Shown: positions 3,024 to 54,794 of the stretch, piece by piece
Position numbering within the stretch: the first letter of the stretch is position 1
Layout of the letters: every line of letters starts with the position of its first letter
DNA from: Butyrivibrio sp.
GTDB lineage: Bacteria > Bacillota > Clostridia > Lachnospirales > Lachnospiraceae
Direction: 5' to 3'
NCBI RefSeq assembly: GCF_017433805.1
Contig: NZ_JAFRGN010000027.1
Coordinates: forward strand, 32,957-96,956
DNA length: 64,000 nucleotides
The notes under the pieces: model-generated
Seen by the model: only the letters and a program-made list of their open reading frames with translations
What the model was told of the DNA's origin: nothing
Database searches by the model: none
Made by a program: the position numbers and the translations under genes

Positions 3024-3674
3024 ATGGATAACATGACAATGCTTGGCCGCAAGACTGAAGAGAAGTCAGCCGGACTTAGCAGCAAAACTCGTTACATGGT
3101 GGAGACTGCCCTCATGATCGCAATCGTACTGATTATGGGCAATACAGTACTTGGTACTATTCCTACACCATTTCTTAAGGTTTCTATCGTAACCGTTCCA
3201 GTTGCTCTCGCAGCAATGCTTATTGGACCAACTGCAGGAATCATCTGCGGTATCGTATTTGGTTTCAACAGCTTTGCAGGCGCTCTTACAGGAGCAAGCG
3301 GAATGCTTTCAACACTTTTTACAATCAGCCCAGCAGGCGTATTTTTCACAGCAGTAGTAGCAAGATTTCTTGACGCTACAGTAGTAAGCTTTGTTTTCCA
3401 GGCTCTCAAGAAGGCTGGACTTAAGCAGGCTTCTTATTATATCACTGGCGCTCTTATGCCACTTTTCAACACAGTATTTTTCATGGGCTCACTTTGCCTG
3501 TTCTTCTATAACACAGACTATGTACAGGGACTTGTTGCCAAGTACAACGCAACTAACCCATTTGCATTCGTAATCGCTATGGTTGGCGTTCAGGCTACTG
3601 TAGAGGCTGTTATCGGATGCCTCCTTGCTGGAACACTTGGTGTTGTTCTTTCTAAGGTACTTAAGAGAGCATAA
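3024..3674 (+). CDS. ECF transporter S component, probably pantothenate-specific (PanT-like)
   Basis: A 216-residue hydrophobic protein with about six membrane segments and the small-residue-rich pattern of ECF S components (for example LAAMLIGPTAGIICGIVFG near residues 55-75). An in-frame TTG lies six bases upstream, but ATG 3024 is eight bases after AGGAG and is preferred. It would bind a vitamin outside the cell and deliver it through the shared EcfA/EcfT module. The next two genes are pantothenate kinase (13 bp downstream) and coaBC, so pantothenate is the likely substrate. That is inference from context; the S-component fold itself is clear. Confidence 0.8.
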   Translation: MDNMTMLGRKTEEKSAGLSSKTRYMVETALMIAIVLIMGNTVLGTIPTPFLKVSIVTVPVALAAMLIGPTAGIICGIVFGFNSFAGALTGASGMLSTLFTISPAGVFFTAVVARFLDATVVSFVFQALKKAGLKQASYYITGALMPLFNTVFFMGSLCLFFYNTDYVQGLVAKYNATNPFAFVIAMVGVQATVEAVIGCLLAGTLGVVLSKVLKRA

Positions 3675-3687
3675 TAGGATTTATAAA

Positions 3688-4581
3688 ATGGTATTAACCG
3701 TAGATATTGGAAATTCGAATATCGTAATTGGGGCTTGGGATAACGATGCCCTACAGTTTACAGGCAGGATACAGACCAGAAGAGACTATACTGAGGATGA
3801 ACTTATGACTTCTTTTGAGGAGTTACTCGGTGACATCCAATCGAATATGACTTCAGATACCGATGAGAAATCTGATGATCATAAGTTTGCCTGCGCCTTT
3901 GAGGGGGCTATTCTGTCTTCTGTTGTGCCTGAAATAACTGACGTAACACTTAATACACTAGAAAAAATTACAGGGAAGAGGCCTCTATTAATGGGGCCTT
4001 TTCTTCATACAGGGGTGGATATTTCTGATTATGCCCCTGGAGCTATAGGAACAGACAGGATAGTAGATCTGTCTGCAGCCCTTGCAATGTACGGCGCACC
4101 AGTCATGGTGTGCGACCTTGGAACCTGCACCACCATCACTGTGGCAGGGGGCTTAGATTCTGAAGATATGAATTCAGATGATGGATATGATAAATCAGGC
4201 AAGAGATATATGGGCAAGCTTATAGGCGGAATGATCTGCCCTGGAGTGCAGCTGTCTCTTGATGCTGAGGCACAGCGTGCTTCACAGCTTCCGCAGCTAA
4301 CTGCCGGCAAGGTGGATTCTCTTTTGGGAAAAGATACAGCGTCGAATATGATGTCTGGAGCAGTCGCTGCCACAGGACTAATGCTGTCTGAGCTGGCTGA
4401 CAGGCTTAAGGATGGAACTTACACAGGCATGGAGATTAGAACATTGCCTGATCTTAAAGTGGTCATTACAGGAGGTCTTGCCCAATATGTAATACCATGG
4501 ATCAAGTGCAGCGCAGAAGTCCATTACGAGCAGGATCTGCTCCTGCGAGGACTCTACGAGATTTATCGCTGCAATAGCTGA
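3688..4581 (+). CDS. coaX: Type III pantothenate kinase
   Basis: CoaX phosphorylates pantothenate, the first committed step to coenzyme A. The 297-residue protein shows the ASKHA phosphate motif DIGNSNIVIG at the N terminus, GTDRIVDLSAAL in the pantothenate site and DLGTCTTITV around residue 148. A 15-20-residue acidic insertion (rich in D, E and S) follows that strand and makes it longer than typical 255-265-residue CoaX. The start is ATG 3688, matching the family's N terminus (MVLTVDIGNSN). It sits 13 bp after the PanT-like gene, probably in the same transcript. No terminator is visible after it. Confidence 0.93.
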   Translation: MVLTVDIGNSNIVIGAWDNDALQFTGRIQTRRDYTEDELMTSFEELLGDIQSNMTSDTDEKSDDHKFACAFEGAILSSVVPEITDVTLNTLEKITGKRPLLMGPFLHTGVDISDYAPGAIGTDRIVDLSAALAMYGAPVMVCDLGTCTTITVAGGLDSEDMNSDDGYDKSGKRYMGKLIGGMICPGVQLSLDAEAQRASQLPQLTAGKVDSLLGKDTASNMMSGAVAATGLMLSELADRLKDGTYTGMEIRTLPDLKVVITGGLAQYVIPWIKCSAEVHYEQDLLLRGLYEIYRCNS

Positions 4582-4665: not shown

Positions 4666-4889
4666 TGCATCGAATTTTAAAGAAATAGCAATTATAGATG
4701 CATATATATAGACGATACTGGCAGTGAGTGCATCGATAATGTGATAGTTGCTGATTATTGATGCAGCATAGCCGCGTTTTGGAAGAGAAATTGCATCGAT
4801 AAGATCAAAAGTTGGTTATTCGATGCATGTGATAAAAATGAAGCTGTGAAATGAGCATCGATTATGAGCAAAATGGGAAAATTGATGCA
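4666..4889. repeat. Phased inverted-repeat array B (4 units) in the 403-bp gap before coaBC
   Basis: Units lie at 4666-4702, 4729-4765, 4792-4827 and 4854-4889 (37, 37, 36, 36 bp). All three gaps between them are exactly 26 bp. Arms are variants of TGCATCGATAAT and its reverse complement; centres and gaps are unrelated in sequence. The array ends 95 bp before coaBC. Outside it the gap holds a short direct repeat (ATGCGTGAC twice near 4640-4660) and AT-rich sequence. No gene was found in this gap. Confidence 0.82.
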
Positions 4890-4984: not shown

Positions 4985-6181
4985 ATGCTGAAAGGAAAAA
5001 ATATATTACTGGGAGTCACAGGTGGAATAGCTGCCTACAAGTCAGCTGATCTTGCGTCCAAACTGATCAAGCAGCATGCAAATGTAGATGTGATCATGAC
5101 TGAGAATGCAACACAGTTCATTACGCCACTTACATTTGAGGCTCTTACTCATAACAGATGTGTCACAGATACCTTCGACAGAAATCACCCATGGGAAGTC
5201 GAGCACATTGCCCTTGCTGATAAAGCGGATGCACTGGTAATAGCTCCAGCTACAGCTAATTGTATTGCCAAGCTTGCCTGTGGAATTGCAGACGACATGC
5301 TGACAACAACAGCGCTTGCCTGCGATTGCACTAAGATAATAGCACCAGCCATGAATACCAAGATGTATGAAAATCCTGTAACACAGAGAAATCTCAATAC
5401 ACTTAAGGAACTTGGTTATATTATAGTAACTCCAGGAGATGGCTATCTTGCTTGCGGAACAGTTGGTAAGGGCAGAATGGAAGAGCCGGTTAACATTGTT
5501 GATGCCATAATTCATGAGATCGCATGCCCCAAGGATATGACAGGACTTAATGTTCTCGTGACAGCTGGCCCAACGAGAGAAGCGATTGATCCTGTCAGAT
5601 ATATCACCAATCATTCAACCGGAAAAATGGGTGTGGCACTTGCCAAGGCTGCAGCCTGTAGAGGTGCTAATGTAACTTTGGTAGCAGGACCTATTGATAT
5701 AGATATCCCATCATATGTGAGTGTTGTGCGAGTATCATCAGCTCAAGAGATGTTTGATGCTGTCACAACAAGGTCTGATGAGCAGGATATCATCATCAAA
5801 GCCGCTGCAGTAGCTGATTACACTCCTGAGACAGTAGCGGATGATAAGATCAAGAAATCTGATAATGACAGTGATCTTTCTATTAAGCTTGCAAGAACTC
5901 AGGATATCCTCGCATGGCTCGGTGAGCACAAGAAGAAGGATCAGCTTCTTTGTGGCTTCTCCATGGAAACAAGAGATATGCTGGAGAATTCCAGAAAGAA
6001 ATTAGCCAAGAAAAACCTCGATATGATCTGTGCAAATAACGTTAAGGTTGAAGGCGCAGGTTTTGGTGTGGACACTAACGTAATTACTATCATCACCAAA
6101 GAAAAAGAAACTGAGCTGGAACTGATGAGTAAGAATGATGCAGCTCACTGTATCCTGACACAGTTACTGGAACTGAAATAA
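4985..6181 (+). CDS. coaBC: Bifunctional phosphopantothenoylcysteine decarboxylase / phosphopantothenate-cysteine ligase
   Basis: A 398-residue CoaBC (Dfp). The N-terminal flavin domain (about 1-180) has GGIAAYKSADL, the catalytic histidine in VEHIALADKAD, and the substrate-clamp PAMNTKMYENP. The C-terminal CoaB domain starts at VLVTAGPTREAIDPVR near residue 188 and contains NHSTGKMG, IKAAAVADY and the active-site MICANNV. It turns 4'-phosphopantothenate plus cysteine into 4'-phosphopantetheine, two steps of CoA synthesis. The start follows AGAGGT. With the PanT-like gene and coaX it forms a pathway cluster, separated from them by array B. Confidence 0.96.
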   Translation: MLKGKNILLGVTGGIAAYKSADLASKLIKQHANVDVIMTENATQFITPLTFEALTHNRCVTDTFDRNHPWEVEHIALADKADALVIAPATANCIAKLACGIADDMLTTTALACDCTKIIAPAMNTKMYENPVTQRNLNTLKELGYIIVTPGDGYLACGTVGKGRMEEPVNIVDAIIHEIACPKDMTGLNVLVTAGPTREAIDPVRYITNHSTGKMGVALAKAAACRGANVTLVAGPIDIDIPSYVSVVRVSSAQEMFDAVTTRSDEQDIIIKAAAVADYTPETVADDKIKKSDNDSDLSIKLARTQDILAWLGEHKKKDQLLCGFSMETRDMLENSRKKLAKKNLDMICANNVKVEGAGFGVDTNVITIITKEKETELELMSKNDAAHCILTQLLELK

Positions 6182-53459: not shown

Positions 53460-54794
53460 ATGACTAAAATAGATATTATTTCTGGCTTTTTGGGAGCTGG
53501 TAAGACAACTCTCATCAAGAAGCTTTTAAAAGAAGCGTTAAATGGAACAAAGGTAGTTCTCATTGAGAACGAATTTGGTGAGATCGGTATTGATGGAGGC
53601 TTCCTCAAGGAAGCTGGCATCGAGATCACAGAGATGAACTCAGGTTGTATCTGTTGTTCACTTGTTGGTGATTTCGAGACATCACTTAAACAGGTTATGG
53701 ATCAGTACGCACCAGAGCGTATACTTATCGAGCCATCAGGCGTTGGTAAGCTTTCAGATGTTATGAGAGCTATTCAGAACATCGCTGAGGGTTCATCAGA
53801 GATGGAGCTCAACAGCGCTGTTACAGTTGTTGATGTTTCCAAGGCTAAGGTTTATATCAAGAACTTCGGTGAATTCTTCATCAACCAGATTGAGAACGCT
53901 GGAACTGTTATCCTTACCAGAACAGATAAGGCAGATCAGAAGAAGATCGAGGAGGCAGTAGAGCTTATCCGTCAGCATAACGCTAAGGCTACAATTATCA
54001 CAACTCCTCTTGATCAGATCACTGGTAAAGAGATCCTTGATACCTTCGAGGGTAACAACGACCTCGAGGCAGAGCTTCTTAAGCAGGTAATGGAAGAGGA
54101 AGAGCATCACCACCATCATCACCATGACCATGGAAGCCACAAGGTTGTTAATGAGGATGGTTCTGTGGTATACAAGGCACATCACGATGATGATGACGAT
54201 GAGGATGAGGATGAGGATGAGTGCTGCTGTCACCACCACCATCATGACGATGATGATGACGAGCATGAGCACGAGCACCACCATCACCACCACGATCACG
54301 ACGATGATGACGAGCATGAGTGCTGCCACCACCATCATCATGATGACGATGACGAGGATGAGCACGAGCATCACCATCACCACCACCATGATCACGACGA
54401 TGATGACGATGAGCATGAGTGCTGCCACCACCATCACCACGACGATGATGATGACGAGCATGAGCATGAGCATCACCATCATCACCACCACGATCATGAC
54501 CATGATCATGCAGCCCATGACGTATTCGTTAGCTGGGGTATGGAGACTCCTCTTAAGTACACTAAGGATGAGATCGAGAAGATGCTTGGTCAGCTTGAGG
54601 ACGAGGAGAGATTTGGTATCGTTCTTCGTACAAAGGGTGTTGTTCCTACAGCAGATGGTCAGTGGATTGAATTTGACTATGTGCCAGGAGAAGCTGATGT
54701 CAGAGACGGTGCTGCAGATGTAACAGGTAAGTTCTGCGTAATCGGTTCTCAGCTCAAGGAAGAGAATCTTGAGAAGCTTTTCAGAAGACTGTAA
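53460..54794 (+). CDS. CobW/COG0523 GTPase with long His/Asp/Cys metal-binding repeat
   Basis: A 444-residue G3E GTPase. Walker A GFLGAGKTT at residue 9, the metal-site motif GCICC near 64, and a base-recognition region reading LTRTDKAD. Residues about 213-353 are almost entirely H, D, E and C, built on a 33-residue period repeated three times (DNA period exactly 99 bp). The CobW C-terminal domain follows (about 355-444). Such proteins deliver zinc or another metal to target enzymes. TTGGAG precedes ATG 53460; the promoter is at 53378. It is the first gene of an apparent metal operon. Confidence 0.92.
   Translation: MTKIDIISGFLGAGKTTLIKKLLKEALNGTKVVLIENEFGEIGIDGGFLKEAGIEITEMNSGCICCSLVGDFETSLKQVMDQYAPERILIEPSGVGKLSDVMRAIQNIAEGSSEMELNSAVTVVDVSKAKVYIKNFGEFFINQIENAGTVILTRTDKADQKKIEEAVELIRQHNAKATIITTPLDQITGKEILDTFEGNNDLEAELLKQVMEEEEHHHHHHHDHGSHKVVNEDGSVVYKAHHDDDDDEDEDEDECCCHHHHHDDDDDEHEHEHHHHHHDHDDDDEHECCHHHHHDDDDEDEHEHHHHHHHDHDDDDDEHECCHHHHHDDDDDEHEHEHHHHHHHDHDHDHAAHDVFVSWGMETPLKYTKDEIEKMLGQLEDEERFGIVLRTKGVVPTADGQWIEFDYVPGEADVRDGAADVTGKFCVIGSQLKEENLEKLFRRL

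Follow-up and report, generated by a model that had tools for sequence, protein, structure and literature searches.

Dispersed arrays of phased palindromes in Lachnospiraceae as candidate platforms for a symmetric protein and for transposons

Cooperative operator and partition arrays, such as parS and iterons, are made of repeated symmetric sites in helical phase. The arrays analysed here share these properties, but 17 of them lie at unrelated loci of one Butyrivibrio genome, and their motif changes between related species. As described in PMC2817692 and PMC1525189, REP/BIME/REPIN repeats are likewise dispersed intergenic palindromes that are regularly spaced, species-specific, bound by proteins and targeted by insertion sequences (ISs). 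The present arrays differ from them in their low hairpin covariation, their rigid dyads, the different repeat that accompanies the RAYT of the same genome, gap classes 10 bp apart (in one relative) and 8-bp duplications (in another). ISPsy8, ISPa11, ISPpu9/10 and ISRm19/22 insert into REPs (PMC1525189), and here, too, an IS seems to select a palindromic intergenic repeat; this one, however, is IS256-like and lands at the centre of the gap between two palindromes. Finally, BrickBuilt of Porphyromonas gingivalis (PMC4596501) is always intergenic (19 copies in one strain) and consists, as here, of tandem units between small inverted-repeat ends. Its units are 23 nt long without spacers, whereas ours are ~62–83 bp long, with symmetric half-sites and constant spacing. 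We found no report of such arrays in the accessible portions of open PMC texts.

The array upstream of coaBC and its copies in the same genome

The window (the whole 64,000-nucleotide stretch of Butyrivibrio DNA that was analysed) contains the array between the genes coaX and coaBC, in the following arrangement; dyads A to D come from direct reading and pattern search.

1369–1529, − strand: degraded second array copy, with D (1369–1404), C (~1431–1465) and B (1493–1529); dyad A lost
2957–2968, − strand: isolated half-site from pattern search, a weak and possible remnant
3625–4581, + strand: upstream gene (ORF), coaX, type III pantothenate kinase
4666–4702, + strand: dyad A, 37 bp, half-sites TGCATCGAATTT / reverse complement TGCATCTATAAT
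4703–4728: gap 1, 26 bp (28 bp from core to core, GATGC to GCATC)
4729–4765, + strand: dyad B, 37 bp
4766–4791: gap 2, 26 bp
4792–4827, + strand: dyad C, 36 bp
4828–4853: gap 3, 26 bp
4854–4889, + strand: dyad D, 36 bp
4985–6181, + strand: downstream gene (ORF), coaBC; tblastn matches annotated coaBC

The coaX label derives from Pfam Pan_kinase matches in two of 126 array-flanking proteins, which we infer to be the window ORF and its homologue in genome G063.

The first-pass annotation had described four dyads of 36–37 bp with three gaps of exactly 26 bp, and both direct reading and pattern search confirmed this; the start-to-start distances are 63, 63 and 62 bp. With up to two mismatches allowed, the half-site TGCATCGATWAT matched 26 times in the 64 kb versus 13.5 expected from shuffling (1 of 100 shuffles reached 26), and the array's eight arms all fall within 224 bp. 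Scanning the window without a preset motif, for half-sites that alternate at a fixed distance, gave two results, one of which is this array (8 half-sites). The other, at ~54,237–54,501, is a long codon-like run of CAC/CAT and GAT/GAC repeats, probably a His- and Asp-rich protein. An Rfam scan of the window gave no match to the array itself at the gathering score; the sole family detected, elsewhere, was Clostridiales-1 RNA (RF01699; 18987–19146, 64.8 bits, with the gathering score at 48).

BLAST of the array against the window's own genome (G000; 3.45 Mb, 74 contigs) gave nine matches, and a profile built from six copies gave 36 (on both strands of a near-palindromic array) at ~16 loci, plus one very weak match. 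The fetched regions contain 17 intergenic arrays with 56 dyads, two to four per array. The search of genome and relatives that had been proposed at the outset recovered dyad arrays both here and in other Lachnospiraceae. At least six elements of G000 are complete (A-B-C-D, ~225 bp), the remaining arrays keeping two to four dyads; since each dyad has its own identity, the copies can be oriented. The gaps had been called not conserved, which holds within the array, but between the copies of the genome they are recognisably homologous (mean identity 43–54% over eight copies). Across the same eight copies, identity in the three bases beside the outer cores is 83% on the left and 38% on the right, with 33–37% in the following 7 bases and 25–30% beyond 10 bp. 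The copies lie at unrelated loci, and homology ends where the array ends. Short ORFs (83–138 aa) overlap three of the 17 arrays and are probably not genes.

No sequence similar to the array was found in 50,697 phage and 72,556 plasmid records. Ten pattern matches in viral contigs were empty under the motif-blind finder, and the six inspected by eye were chance-like, in coding DNA, so a phage or plasmid origin was set aside. A CRISPR array was likewise rejected, because the G000 repeats diverge within an array and the spacers are common to several loci.

Spacing, half-sites and other motifs

With inner spacings of 12–42 bp and gaps of 14–44 bp allowed, a search of G000 gave 68 matches (both strands) versus 6 for a reversed control pattern. 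In the fetched regions, measured with inner lengths of 18–32 and gaps of 20–36 bp allowed and with a scoring that slightly favoured inner lengths of 24–25, the inner length was 24 or 25 bp in 56 of 56 dyads. The 5-bp cores of neighbouring dyads were 27–29 bp apart in all 39 gaps of the 17 arrays, which corresponds to 25–27 bp in the gap count of the first-pass annotation; the random gap lengths named there as contrary evidence were not what we observed. The 112 arms define a 12-bp half-site, TGCATCDAWWWT; at positions 6 to 8, C is present in no more than one arm of the 112, and information outside the half-site stays <0.4 bits. The near 100% conservation of the core is partly built in, because the unit finder tolerated no more than one mismatch across the two 5-bp cores of a dyad.

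Many named Lachnospiraceae carry arrays with the GCATC core and the same spacing, with unrelated centres and gaps. The two-dyad pattern was found in at least 113 stretches of named genomes, 37 of them titled Lachnospiraceae, Blautia, Agathobacter or Pseudobutyrivibrio. A motif-blind finder requiring at least six half-sites detected arrays in 25 of these 37 stretches (16 + 9; a few built on words other than GCATC) versus 2 of the 76 others. Among the matches listed, G035 has 13 arrays, 12 of them with three dyads, of the same architecture and different sequence, and the same is true of the architecture in G025, G007 and G092 of the same genus. In G035, three arrays of three dyads each (L233; 6351, 8006 and 11331) closely resemble one another and lie within 5 kb, probably through a recent local duplication.

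Because most genomes other than G000 were first chosen by a narrow spacing pattern, measurements with wide spacing or with exact cores are the fairer tests. By exact cores (inner length 14–40 bp, nearest next dyad at 14–64 bp), the gap was 27–29 bp in 21/21 cases in G000, 9/10 in G035, 13/13 in G194 and 17/17 in G197; at other Lachnospiraceae loci it was 27–29 bp in 57 of 65 cases and 26–30 bp in 64 of 65. With wide spacing allowed, match lengths of 67–69 made up 36 of 53 matches in G194 and 42 of 51 in G197. In homogeneous arrays, the constant spacing is partly due to tandem duplication. At L118, where neighbouring units have unrelated centres and gaps, the gaps are 26–30 bp long and do not follow whole-turn steps.

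Whole-turn steps were seen in G196 (Lachnospiraceae Tb.RUG.499, the genome of L131). When gaps of 30–60 bp were allowed, 57 matches were obtained (on both strands, so that most gaps are counted twice), with lengths of 78 in 51 (gap 38), 87–88 in five (gap 48) and one other. In nine fetched loci, measured with no preferred length, all 38 gaps were of 28 (n=11), 38 (25) or 48 bp (2). The inner length was 23–25 bp in 36 of 38 cases, and a doubled start accounts for at least one of the two longer lengths. As the spacers fall by eye into about four families, these gaps represent a handful of independent cases. The same gap range gave 0 to 11 matches of scattered lengths in each of nine further genomes, so one of the ten genomes shows the helical step; elsewhere the spacing is constant, near six turns, within about ±2 bp. 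A face-bound protein lattice requires dyads that are rigid and neighbours displaced by one turn or two.

Within genomes, the arms beyond the core vary mostly independently, and the dyads are not mainly hairpins. Position 6 was paired in 17 of 56 cases in G000 (18.8±3.5 in shuffled controls) and in 20 of 40 in G035 (19.4±2.6). Compensatory change, as for the hairpin arms of REP/BIME, was not found in these two genomes apart from two weak exceptions, position 9 in G000 (37/56 versus 27.0, z 2.7) and position 7 in G035 (z 2.1); some values were negative. The ratio of G.T to A.C mispairs was 18:14 in G000, 8:24 in G035 and 36:59 in other Lachnospiraceae, with no consistent G.T excess. Comparison of Lachnospiraceae loci shows joint change at positions 6 and 7 (z 11.8 and 5.2, values inflated by relatedness, which was not removed), that is, the motif shifts by genome, as when the specificity of a protein shifts. 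The largely independent variation of the arms and the restriction of the G196 gaps to 28, 38 and 48 bp support a reading as phased protein sites. The earlier idea that the dyads face one side of the DNA is strengthened by the spacing kept in other copies, the weak covariation of the arms and, in one relative, the 10-bp gap classes. A period of 62–63 bp as a hard rule is ruled out by other motif families, whose periods (51–55, 65 and 73) are near, not exactly, whole turns.

Among these families, eight fetched arrays of G063 consist of the dyad GTNATTAC..GTAATANC with a period of 53. One of them lies between coaX and coaBC (L246, 1204–1440), the same spot as window 4666–4889, with a different motif. 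Across 11 relatives, the coaX–coaBC spacer holds this one other-motif array, is masked in one genome and is without a GCATC array in the rest; the nine remaining spacers are mostly some tens of bp by eye, in DNA too diverged to place an insertion point. A third motif, with a period of 51–52, is found in G014 directly downstream of a GH43-like gene, and immediately downstream of this gene's homologue in G000 (66% identical) there is likewise an array. Arrays at shared spots may reflect hot spots or in-place turnover.

Motif-blind scanning of 100 pieces of ~20 kb yielded seven non-coding arrays with at least 8 half-sites in the genus, in G031 and G085 (periods 52, 53, 53, 54, 54, 65 and 73); none of this size was found in the scanned pieces of G000, G063, G086, G079, G019, G035 and G014. 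The count excludes coding repeats, a CRISPR-like array (L363), an array outside the genus (L356, period 44) and eight in-genus non-coding matches with 6 half-sites, among them a GCATC array of the window's genome (L328). Shuffled controls gave two matches, both with 6 half-sites. The excluded L363 (17831–19769, G154) is a tandem repeat of period 66–67 that resembles a CRISPR array. Arrays of the motif GGTAATACC, period 52–53, occur at L285–L291 (G063) and at L311 and L340 (G031), and further motifs are TTAGCCGA (period 65), CTGCCTATA (54) and CCCTGCAAA (73), with loci as follows.

L297, 10503–10862: further-motif array
L298, 2995–3298 (G085): further-motif array
L310, 14497–14763 (G031): further-motif array

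Association with mobile elements

In G197 (isolate RUI455, the genome of L137) the arrays sit within elements of 385–522 bp that have inverted-repeat ends like CTCCCTTTTTRCANNNGTGT and are too short to hold a transposase gene. All five complete elements show the combination expected of a MITE, inverted repeats with exact 8-bp target duplications (ATAATTAA, AAAGGATA, ATAAATAT, TTAATATA and TTTATGTA). End-repeat sites with at most one mismatch adjoin arrays in 12 of 12 cases, and both sites with two mismatches do not. An inverted-repeat test of the 88 arrays listed, in which those with flanks <60 bp were skipped, gave four passes: the ends are transposon-like in L137 and L203; in L288 and L312 the inverted repeats are long and of other kinds.

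The first-pass annotation had argued for a binding array rather than a mobile repeat, an opposition that does not survive these G197 copies and the dispersal of the G000 copies at unrelated loci. Unrelated loci with target duplications, which it had held to be incompatible with its proposal, are indeed found together in G197. In G000 the arrays are short, dispersed and multi-copy, as MITEs are, but no target duplication was found around the 13 arrays tested, and no consistent flank or inverted-repeat ends were found in the flanks of the G000 arrays. The G000 copies may be older.

In G194 (Blautia sp. MSJ-19) arrays run into an IS common to many contig ends. At all ten distinct junctions, which were found via the arrays and so cover array-linked IS copies, the IS starts 17 (one), 18 (eight) or 19 bp (one) past the last half-site, after GATGC in eight and after GATGT in two (counted by eye). 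At junction L437, the side available has only a single degenerate dyad. Two junctions, L434 and L444, are apparently the two sides of one insertion, with 10 + TGTTATAT + 10 = 28; joined, they look like a restored 28-bp gap with the 8-bp duplication at its centre. In Lachnospira eligens, an IS end of 75% identity is part of an element annotated as an IS256 family transposase element, and no array was found within 6 kb around the two copies of the related IS in that species.

Competing readings and significance

The junctions invite the reading that the arrays are target sites of an IS256-like transposase that recognizes GATGC..GCATC, and that they grow and spread by sheltering insertions. We regard this as possible but rather doubtful. 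It would account for the position of 10/10 junctions at the gap centre, the 10-8-10 symmetry and the 8-bp duplications seen with the IS as well as with the G197 element, and ISs targeting palindromic REPs are known (PMC1525189). However, the available IS end stretches contain neither GCATC nor GATGC, the two L. eligens relatives are without an array in the surrounding 6 kb, and no transposase family is among the best 25 of 211 array-neighbour families. Alternatively, the array could be a plain non-autonomous MITE-like repeat with an internal minisatellite, its geometry inherited by copying and without binding function. Dispersed intergenic arrays lacking gene association, the ends and duplications in G197, the nearly identical tandem units of several loci (e.g. 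L131 and L174) and the precedent of BrickBuilt, a MITE with an internal minisatellite (PMC4596501), fit such a repeat. It remains unlikely, as the spacing is kept although centres and gaps show no relation from one genome to another, and often none from one unit to the next (L118), 10-bp gap-length classes are not expected from drift, and the core is kept amid a random remainder (a figure inflated by the finder, which accepted dyads with no more than one core mismatch). REP/BIME repeats mobilized by a RAYT (HUH transposase) are also regularly spaced, orientation-alternating palindromes that bind proteins (PMC2817692), and G000 does contain a RAYT-like Y1 transposase gene. This gene (L089, 1340–2270; G000:C34:60319) is flanked by its own REP-like repeat, similar to GGACCACTAACCCCGTCCCCTAGGTCC, which occurs at two further places in L089; its 3.3-kb locus contains no GCATC dyad, and an array lies ~7 kb away. 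A RAYT/REPIN origin is rejected for this RAYT, whose flanking repeat differs. Together with the mostly independent variation of the dyad arms and the target duplications of the G197 copies, which are not expected of HUH transposition, this makes RAYT mobilization extremely improbable.

The listing of flanking genes that had been proposed returned unrelated neighbours: no recurrent family was found in 126 of the 134 array-flanking proteins, the largest being GNAT with four members among the best 25 of 211 families, which also include no partition or initiator family. An operator array of a classical regulator, defining a regulon, is quite unlikely when the flanking genes (126 of 134 proteins scanned) share no function and the arrays sit between codirectional, convergent and divergent genes alike, even though all are intergenic and a 303-aa gene (L094) has an array upstream in four genomes of the genus. 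Transcribed tandem RNA hairpins, serving as regulatory RNA, terminator or mRNA stabilizer, would agree with a + strand that folds better than its shuffles (z −3.9; − strand, z −2.1), with two-sided change in 5 of 39 consensus pairs and with the imperfection of the dyads. Nevertheless, the covariation is small and its term unfavourable (+1.2), an excess of G.U is absent, the array has no Rfam match at the gathering score, and gap lengths in helical steps would be meaningless for single-stranded linkers, so that we hold RNA hairpins to be very unlikely. Weak covariation likewise disfavours RNA or cruciform structure in general, despite the better-than-shuffled fold of the + strand.

On balance we lean, with some reserve, towards reading the dispersed phased palindrome arrays as half-site platforms for a putative symmetric protein, perhaps a transposase, that are both spread by transposons and attractive to them. 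Each dyad would offer two 12-bp half-sites, TGCATCDAWWWT, to a candidate symmetric DNA-binding protein, which may come from the host or from the element. The fixed core spacing of 24–25 bp inside the dyad would suit one rigid dimer or tetramer, and the dyad–dyad spacing of ~28 bp (38 and 48 in one relative) would place neighbours on one DNA face, touching. Whole arrays appear to be copied to new intergenic places, as observed in G197 and as suggested for G000 because the homology of its copies ends with the array. The complex, or the half-sites directly, would steer at least one IS256-like transposon to the middle of the gap, where the Blautia insertions are positioned. The function of such a nucleoprotein platform would most likely be the safe intergenic landing and spread of mobile elements; any role on the side of the host would lie in organizing DNA locally, not in control of one gene set.

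More tentatively, and as a possibility rather than an expectation, these may be mobile nucleoprotein platforms throughout the Lachnospiraceae, with arrays in helical phase, a core common across genera, outer bases that shift by genome with a fast-evolving protein family, and landing at the linker centre. With the same reserve, the protein may organize intergenic DNA, and other motifs may partly replace the arrays at the same chromosomal spots.

The 10-bp gap classes would be a rare, purely genomic sign of a selected protein lattice on DNA, and the gap-centre insertions a ready assay for lattice position. If the platform reading is true, the arrays are a common and apparently undescribed sequence feature in one of the major bacterial families of gut and rumen, with a bearing on how intergenic repeats persist, on how transposons come to land where they do no harm and, possibly, on nucleoid organization in Clostridia.
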